Source of the DNA: Bacillota bacterium
GTDB taxonomy: Bacteria > Armatimonadota > HRBIN16
Length of the DNA: 57,791 nt
Direction: 5' to 3'
Assembly (NCBI GenBank): GCA_023511455.1
Contig: JAIMBJ010000020.1
Span: forward strand, 1-57,791
In this document: positions 14,688 to 16,756 of the stretch, one piece after another
How positions within the stretch are numbered: position 1 is the first letter of the stretch
Layout of the letters: every line of letters begins with the position of its first letter
Made by a program: the position numbers and the translations under genes
Notes under the pieces: model-generated
Seen by the model: the letters and a program-made list of their open reading frames with translations, nothing else
What the model was told of the DNA's origin: nothing
Databases searched by the model: none

Positions 14688-14867
14688 CTACTTTTGAGGC
14701 TGGTTTTGCCCGAAAACCAGCAGCAACCCCAGCACTGCCCCGTAGATGGCGGCAATGACAGGGTTGCAGAGAATGCCTCAAGTGCTGCCCATCTTGCGGG
14801 ACAGCGCGGACAGTATCACACCCGCCACTGCCCCGCCGGCGATGGCAAGAATAGCTTTGAGCGGCAT
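14688..14867 (-). CDS. Candidate selenoprotein: small DUF6132-like membrane protein with in-frame TGA
   Basis: Read through one TGA (14780-14778), this is a 59-residue protein. The first helix (AILAIAGGAVAGVILSAL) is followed by MGST, the TGA codon at position 30, then GILCNPVIAAIYGAVLGLLL and a short polar tail. The ATG at 14867 has a perfect AGGAGG eight bases upstream that overlaps the thioredoxin stop codon, so both are co-transcribed. In DUF6132-type proteins as I remember them, a Cys precedes xxx[S/C]NP at the same place as the TGA, so selenocysteine or a lost Cys is likely. The RNA after the UGA can form CCCUGU/ACGGGG 14 bases downstream, a possible SECIS stem. A nonsense mutation or sequencing error is the alternative. 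Confidence 0.6.
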
Positions 14868-14879
14868 GAGCAATTCCTC

Positions 14880-15290
14880 CTACACGGTCTCTGTGTTGCC
14901 TGCTGTTGCAGGTGCCTCTGCTGGCAGGTGCGGCAGTATCTTCGCCATGATATGCTGTTTGGGCATCAGCCCCACCAGCCGCTCGCGGGCGAAACCGCGT
15001 GTGAACAGGATGAGCGTCGGGATGCCCTGAATGCCGTAGGCATTGGCCGTAATCGGGTTCTCATCGGTGTTCAGCTTCACCACCTTTAGCCGCCCCTGAT
15101 ACTCGCGGGCTATATCTTCCAGAATAGGCGCGAGCATCCGGCAGGGTCCGCACCACGGCGCCCAGAAGTCCACCAGCACCGGAATGTCCGACTCCAGTAC
15201 CTCTTGCTTGAACGTGCTGGCGTTGACATGCTTGATCAACCCGCTTTCGGAGTGGTCAGTTGCCTGTCTTCGCCCGAACAGTCCGAACAT
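14880..15290 (-). CDS. trx: Thioredoxin
   Basis: A 136-residue thioredoxin with the canonical active site WAPWCGPCRM (Cys47 and Cys50) and the cis-proline region GIQGIPTLILF. The start ATG 15290 is preceded by AAGGAGG at a longish 14-base spacing; the frame stays open upstream to 15371. A short N-terminal extension (FGLFGRRQ) precedes the fold. It reduces disulfides in the cytoplasm. The small membrane protein translated directly after it may be a redox partner. Confidence 0.92.
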   Translation of the reverse strand: MFGLFGRRQATDHSESGLIKHVNASTFKQEVLESDIPVLVDFWAPWCGPCRMLAPILEDIAREYQGRLKVVKLNTDENPITANAYGIQGIPTLILFTRGFARERLVGLMPKQHIMAKILPHLPAEAPATAGNTETV

Positions 15291-15410
15291 ACTGGTATTT
15301 TCAACCTCCTTACGTTGTACTTTGGTGTTATTCCGAAACATTAGATACCCTTTCGGCAGCGGAAGATTCACGGTAGAATAGAGAAGGCTGCTTCACATTC
15401 GGGGGTGAAC

Positions 15411-16118
15411 ATGCGTTTAACACAGAAAAAAGGGGGTCTTATCGTCTCCTGCCAGGCGCCGGAAAACACGCCGTTGGGAAAACCGGTTGTGCTGGCGGCA
15501 CTGGCAGAGGCGGCCGTGCGCGGCGGGGCAGCAGGCATTCGCGCCAACCTTCCGCAAAACATCCGTGCCATTCGGGAGCTGGTTCAGGTGCCGATAATCG
15601 GCATCTACAAGCACACTCTGCCAGACTACCCGGTGTACATTACTCCCACTTTTGAGCACGCCCGTGCGGTAGTAGAGGCTGGTGCGGACGTTGTGGCGAT
15701 AGATGCGACCGACCGCGACCGCCCTGAGCCATTGCAGGAGTTGATACAGCGCATTCATGAGGAACTCGGCGTGCCGGTGATGGCGGACATCTCGACGCTG
15801 GAGGAAGGCGTTGCTGCAGCGGAGATGGGGGCGGACCTGGTCGCCACCACGATGTCGGGCTATACTCCGTACACCCAGCACCGCCGCACGATGGGGGCAG
15901 ATATCGCACTGGTTGGGCAGCTGGCGCAGAAGGTCACCGTGCCTGTTATCTGCGAAGGGCGCATTTCGTCGCCAGAGGAAGCCCGTCTCGCGCTGGAGGC
16001 GGGAGCATGGGCGGTGGTGGTCGGCACTGCGATTACCGCCATCGATCAGGTGACTGCCCGTTTTGTGGAGAGGATGCGACAGCGCACCGCCGGTAATGGC
16101 AACGAGCACAATAGCTGA
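15411..16118 (+). CDS. nanE: N-acetylmannosamine-6-phosphate 2-epimerase
   Basis: Interconverts ManNAc-6-phosphate and GlcNAc-6-phosphate. TIM-barrel protein of about 235 residues with GLIVSCQAPENTPLGKP at the N-terminus, PIIGIYKHTLPDYPVYITP (catalytic Lys region) and the C-terminal phosphate-binding ICEGRISSPEEARLALEAGA. The ATG at 15411 is preferred; a GTG at 15405 is in frame and GGGGG lies just before it. No other sialic-acid genes are nearby, so it may serve amino-sugar recycling together with the nearby glmU pathway. Confidence 0.92.
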   Translation: MRLTQKKGGLIVSCQAPENTPLGKPVVLAALAEAAVRGGAAGIRANLPQNIRAIRELVQVPIIGIYKHTLPDYPVYITPTFEHARAVVEAGADVVAIDATDRDRPEPLQELIQRIHEELGVPVMADISTLEEGVAAAEMGADLVATTMSGYTPYTQHRRTMGADIALVGQLAQKVTVPVICEGRISSPEEARLALEAGAWAVVVGTAITAIDQVTARFVERMRQRTAGNGNEHNS

Positions 16119-16129
16119 CCAACAAGCGT

Positions 16130-16756
16130 TTATGTTTCCCCGGAGCCTGCGGCAGTGTTCTGTGCGTTGAAGCGGTTCATCGCCGCCTGCACCCCTTCGG
16201 CGATAATCGCTTCGACTGCGTCGGCGGCGCGTTGTAGAGCCTCGTCGATAATCGGTTGCTCTGGAGGGGCAAAGCGGGAGAGCACATACTCCACCATCTG
16301 CCCCGGTGGGGGACTGCCAATGCCCACGCGCACGCGCGGAAACGCCTGCGTGCCCACGCACTGGATGATAGACTCCAGGCCGTTGTGCCCGCCATCAGAG
16401 CCAGAAGGGCGAATGCGGATCCTGCCCAGAGGCAGCGCTACATCATCCACCACCACCAGCAAATGAGAAACGTCTCTCGGATAGCGTTGTAGCAGTGCTC
16501 GTGCCGCTTCGCCACTGCGATTCATGTAGGTCATCGGCTTCGCCAGCAGCACAGGTACCTCGGCAATCATTCCCAGTCCGTAGCGGGCATGGTCGCGGCT
16601 CAGGTTCAGGCGAATGCGATGGCGGCTGGCGAGGATGTCTACCACGTCAAAACCGATATTGTGCCGGGTATGGGCATACTCCGCACCCGGATTGCCCAAC
16701 CCCAGCACAATCCACTCCGGATGTACCTCTTGAGTTCTTCCAAACCATATCCGCAT
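16130..16756 (-). CDS. pth: Peptidyl-tRNA hydrolase
   Basis: Cleaves peptidyl-tRNA released during aborted translation. At 208 residues it has the family signature LGLGNPGAEYAHTRHNIGFD near residues 18-37, including the catalytic His in RHNIG, plus MTYMNRSGEA and DDVALPLGRIRIRPSGSDGG with the conserved catalytic Asp. It lies four bases downstream of prs; glmU, prs and pth form one minus-strand unit, an order common in bacteria. Confidence 0.95.
   Translation of the reverse strand: MRIWFGRTQEVHPEWIVLGLGNPGAEYAHTRHNIGFDVVDILASRHRIRLNLSRDHARYGLGMIAEVPVLLAKPMTYMNRSGEAARALLQRYPRDVSHLLVVVDDVALPLGRIRIRPSGSDGGHNGLESIIQCVGTQAFPRVRVGIGSPPPGQMVEYVLSRFAPPEQPIIDEALQRAADAVEAIIAEGVQAAMNRFNAQNTAAGSGET

Follow-up and report, generated by a model that had tools for sequence, protein, structure and literature searches.

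A small two-helix membrane protein encoded behind thioredoxin in Armatimonadota is a probable selenoprotein related to DUF6132

A reading frame of 59 codons that follows a thioredoxin gene very probably encodes a selenoprotein, with actual insertion of selenocysteine (Sec) at an in-frame TGA, codon 30. This assignment comes from comparative sequence analysis: the TGA is conserved, some homologues carry Cys in its place, the genome has the sel genes, and a hairpin is predicted 3′ of the UGA. The frame lies on the minus strand of the window, by which we mean the whole stretch of 57,791 nucleotides analyzed here, and its features are as follows.

14867..14688, minus strand: ORF proposed to encode Sec; 59 residues, then TAG, with membrane helices predicted at residues 3-25 and 36-54
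14867-14865, minus strand: start ATG (terminal stop TAG at 14690-14688)
14780..14778, minus strand: in-frame TGA, codon 30, proposed selenocysteine, at the invariant Sec/Cys position of the family
14766..14768, minus strand: Cys34 codon (TGC), proposed partner of Sec30 (U+4)
14881-14876, minus strand: AGGAGG ribosome binding site, 8 nt 5′ of the ATG, overlapping the thioredoxin TAG (14882-14880)
14723..14767, minus strand: hairpin resembling a SECIS, spanning +14 to +58 relative to the UGA, with fold z of –3.3 and silent-site covariation
14880..15290, minus strand: upstream thioredoxin gene (WCGPC), separated by 12 nt from the ATG that starts the selenoprotein frame; Pfam Thioredoxin, 106 bits

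The first-pass annotation had described a 59-codon frame with a ribosome binding site, broken by one TGA, and this is what we find: the product reads MPLKAILAIAGGAVAGVILSALSRKMGST-U-GILCNPVIAAIYGAVLGLLLVFGQNQPQK, then TAG, and the TGA is the sole interruption. The two-helix membrane protein that it saw spanning the TGA is also recovered by AlphaFold, which places helices at residues 3-25 and 36-54 with Sec at the turn, at modest confidence (pLDDT 70, pTM 0.36). Members of the family are unusually small, each a membrane hairpin of about 53–63 aa. Because gene callers stop at UGA, the gene is likely missing from protein databases.

To assess conservation, we compared the frame within and beyond its genus. 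The gene is present in 9 of the 10 genomes of the genus, and all nine carry the identical TGA; no match was found in G001, of the same genus (93% complete), despite the presence of selA and selB. The nucleotide sequences of these nine members are 76% identical before the TGA, 100% at it and 84% after it, compared to 30% past the end of the frame, with dN/dS values of 0.18 before the TGA and 0.11 after. In three relatives (L025, L028 and L102) the ORF's own terminator is TGA, indicating that at another position of this gene TGA continues to act as a stop.

Across the phylum of the window, 28 of 291 genomes gave matches, one of them a chance match to a sugar-isomerase-like frame (L047) that was set aside. 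Most of these matches, in families f1, f5, f8, f16, f26 and f32-f35, have TGA at the same place, and others have Cys there instead (L029, L033, L041 and L043); Cys is also found in L048. Homologues occur in both forms and do not end at the TGA. A search with the DUF6132 HMM added TGA forms in f41 (G253, G254 and G256) and more Cys forms; its matches at L051, L052, L054, L055, L057 and L059-L062 were judged chance or unrelated, from the frames themselves or as partial matches within longer frames. Family assignment is weakest for the f16 members L045 and L046, small frames of low score with UxxC motifs (GSS-U-INCRQP and NTG-U-LSCHQP) and possibly another branch of the family. Beyond the phylum, scanning GTDB contigs revealed the TGA-bearing family in Syntrophaceae and other deltaproteobacterial metagenome-assembled genomes. 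Within the phylum of one of these (L102), 26 of 395 sampled genomes match, at 28 places, every one with a single in-frame TGA. A consensus-protein scan of genome contigs gave no match (a later scan with alignment A6 did find members), nor did tblastn against plasmids. Two genomes, G380 and G409, have two copies of the gene each.

The nearest Pfam family to the window protein is DUF6132 (PF19628), small membrane proteins without known function, for which the gathering cut-off is 23.2 bits. By itself the window protein scores 13.9 bits, below this cut-off, and the deltaproteobacterial form falls just short at 22.0 bits; G253 and G254 exceed it in the genome search (24.1 and 24.2 bits). When the residue at the U position of the G254 form was varied, the score was 30.8 bits with Cys, 26.1 with Ser, 25.6 with X and 24.2 with Trp. 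Swapping out Cys thus costs 5–7 bits, indicating that the conserved Cys of DUF6132 lies exactly where the TGA falls. The earlier annotation, which named such a Cys, was right about its position (Cys adds about 5 bits), and its DUF6132 lead holds by way of the relatives, though not for the window protein taken alone. Length, two-helix layout and a Cys-bearing motif followed by xxxNP are shared with DUF6132. The two differ in having Cys there versus Sec here, and in that DUF6132 prefers Ser at +4, where the partner Cys (CNP) is usual here. On these sequence grounds we call the group a putative DUF6132-related selenoprotein family, as opposed to a strict DUF6132 member.

Reading UGA as Sec depends on dedicated machinery, and the annotation had named absence of sel genes as evidence against its proposal. 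The host genome (G000, 99% complete) encodes tRNA-Sec with anticodon TCA, together with selA (597 bits), selB (414 bits) and selD (385 bits), each scoring higher than its curated cut-off. Host selD (L017:1501-2424, C10) itself contains one in-frame TGA, in the motif RCAG-U-ASKLG, which we take to be the catalytic Sec/Cys place of the SelD family; it is hence a second, textbook selenoprotein gene in this genome. Sec/Cys exchange tracks the presence of sel genes. Among Armatimonadota, selA or selB is present in each of the 26 genomes with the Sec form (selA in 24; in G009 and G254, selB was found without selA), compared to one of six with the Cys form (G192, which has both). The Fisher test gives P = 3e-5, a value in which neither relatedness nor the incomplete state of G230, G213 and G108 is taken into account. 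The contrast is visible within a single genus, g127, where G231 has Sec, selA and selB, whereas in G232 (97% complete) and G230 the residue is Cys and no selA or selB was found. In all eight genomes found outside the search of the window's phylum, selB is present.

Folding of the RNA 3′ of the UGA predicts a stable hairpin that starts 10 nt downstream and pairs positions +14 to +22 (the UGCAACCCUG region) with +50 to +58 (the GGGGUUGC region), with an inner stem of +24 to +30 and +42 to +48. Its fold energy is –30.3 kcal/mol (z = –3.3), and a similar fold is seen in most relatives. The 6-bp CCCUGU/ACGGGG stem proposed earlier is not the favored fold; the larger, covarying hairpin replaces it. 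Across 21 Sec sequences, 82% of cells are paired, compared to only 33–58% in slid controls, and both sides are changed in 29 cells versus 14 in shuffles; no shuffle reached the observed covariation score. With the strands in this register, third codon positions lie opposite each other, so pairing can be assessed at mostly silent sites. At such sites, 69 of 100 pairs were formed among 20 clade representatives, compared to 51 expected, and none of 5000 shuffles (which keep relatedness) reached this value. The deltaproteobacterial set alone shows weak silent-site covariation, and hence the covariation claim rests on the 20 clade representatives. The hairpin differs from the textbook SECIS of E. 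coli, and an Rfam scan of the locus returned nothing above chance. A conserved guanosine has been described in bacterial SECIS elements (PMC1088965). The G at +31, at the start of the apical loop, would fit this guanosine if the two innermost pairs open, as only then does it open the loop; a few relatives have A in that column.

Could the TGA be something other than a Sec codon? TGA normally means stop, and a good ribosome binding site precedes the 29-codon frame, which would then encode a single-helix peptide of 29 residues with the downstream frame untranslated. Yet it is the codons after the TGA that are under stronger purifying selection (dN/dS 0.11), identity falls to 30% only past the second stop, and the homologues that have Cys at this codon come mostly from genomes without sel genes. 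These data make a true stop very improbable. Slightly less credible still is decoding as another residue, through code reassignment, a suppressor tRNA or plain readthrough, for which nothing speaks beyond the open frame; TGA terminates the same ORF at L025, L028 and L102, the residue exchanged for it is Cys, sel genes occur alongside, and a conserved hairpin is predicted at the site. A sequencing error or a decaying pseudogene would account for a single-site interruption of one frame. However, the identical TGA recurs in assemblies that are independent of one another and represent two or more phyla, and dN/dS is low; this conservation already refutes that reading, and we give it almost no weight. 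The Sec assignment of the first-pass annotation has thus survived each of the three findings that it had named against itself.

If the TGA does encode Sec, what might the protein do? In the 60 tabulated members, which are related and so do not represent 60 independent events, exactly one Cys lies within 8 residues of the Sec/Cys position in every case: at +4 in 49, at +3 in 2 and at –5 in 9. The –5 form was found in Armatimonadota (f41, f5 and f16) and in the second phylum. A partner Cys that switches sides and is never missing is as a selenenylsulfide/disulfide pair predicts, pointing to such a pair here. At L135 and L137-L139, the –5 Cys occurs in the arrangement KC-x4-U-xxTAxP.

Gene neighbors provide additional clues. 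In the nine genus members, trxA lies 7–14 nt upstream of the gene. In f34 the distance is 24–31 nt, and the cluster runs CsoR/CstR-type repressor, thioredoxin, DUF6132(Sec), OsmC. Seven deltaproteobacterial genomes have trxA upstream, usually with an FmdB-like zinc ribbon (named from sequence reading) after the gene. Cys forms in f21 have trxA and a TrxB-like reductase downstream; at L134 and L136 the order, by sequence reading, is ECF sigma factor, anti-sigma factor (CxxC), DUF6132(Sec), TrxB-like reductase. No thioredoxin neighbor was seen in the clade L119-L130, and several lineages lack one. The thioredoxin link drawn in the earlier annotation is nevertheless conserved, as trxA or trxB adjoins the gene in several unrelated lineages.

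Taken as a whole, the best explanation, to which we assign a probability of roughly three in four, is that Sec insertion yields a membrane redox pair reduced by thioredoxin. SelA, SelB, SelD and tRNA-Sec of the host, acting with the hairpin 3′ of the UGA, would decode codon 30 as selenocysteine, giving a two-helix membrane protein of 59 residues with Sec30 between the helices. Sec30 and the nearby Cys (Cys34 here) would form a selenol/selenenylsulfide pair, kept reduced by the thioredoxin encoded upstream. The protein may then serve as a membrane-anchored thiol-selenol reductase or electron relay, acting for example on peroxides, persulfides or disulfides at the membrane. That the redox pair and its reduction by thioredoxin both hold, making this a thioredoxin-linked membrane redox protein, seems somewhat favored, although less firmly than Sec insertion itself.

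One competing idea accepts the selenoprotein and changes its role, from electron transfer to transport or binding of selenium, of sulfur species or of a soft metal, for instance mercury, which would make it comparable to small membrane proteins with a Cys pair such as MerF/MerT. The protein's small size, its two membrane helices and the chalcogen pair where they turn would suit this function; PMC13188914 lists a MerT-type selenoprotein family, and a CsoR/CstR-type repressor adjoins the gene in G228/G229. Against this, no mer genes were recognized among the neighbors seen, the recurrent ones being trxA, trxB and OsmC, and there is no Pfam match to MerT. We consider a transport or binding role a minority prospect.

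More speculative, and a little less likely again, is an extension of the redox reading in which thioredoxin in the cytoplasm passes reducing equivalents to the Sec-Cys pair of this minimal transmembrane selenoprotein, which carries them into or across the membrane. The two-helix hairpin would need to form oligomers, and the protein would be a tiny, selenium-based functional counterpart of DsbD/CcdA. Like those relays, it would have a membrane-embedded chalcogen pair working with thioredoxin; unlike them, it has two helices instead of six to eight, and Pfam searches found no similarity to DsbD/CcdA.

The family is apparently unlisted. An inventory of 119 prokaryotic selenoprotein families and subfamilies (PMC13188914, 2026) contains none with a U-x-x-x-C-N-P motif or DUF6132, and NCBIfam release 20 has no matching model. 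A literature text search for DUF6132 returned only a plant paper on nucleotide sugar transporters, judged unrelated. Overlap with an unnamed earlier candidate among some old hypothetical families (e.g. GOS_A) is possible. The family resembles inventoried bacterial selenoproteins (PMC13188914) in its in-frame UGA, sel genes, downstream hairpin, Cys homologues and Cys near Sec, and departs from them in being an unusually small membrane hairpin. It would add a selenoprotein family, in two bacterial phyla, to a kind with mostly soluble, larger members. Sec/Cys exchange, the side-switching Cys and the Trx/TrxB neighbors make the function of DUF6132-like proteins directly testable.

Several further features of gene context were observed. 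At L074 and L076, a CsoR/CstR-type repressor, thioredoxin, the selenoprotein and OsmC lie in one cluster, suggesting a persulfide or peroxide response, and the row at L134/L136 may be a redox-controlled regulon. The order trxA, selenoprotein, FmdB-like zinc ribbon is kept at L102, L103, L105 and L108, and a zinc ribbon of similar look lies just upstream of the selenoprotein at L072 (G231). In the window itself, a NanE-type N-acetylmannosamine-6-phosphate epimerase (15405-16118, plus strand) is divergent from the adjoining thioredoxin gene, and a peptidyl-tRNA hydrolase is encoded at 16130-16756 on the minus strand.
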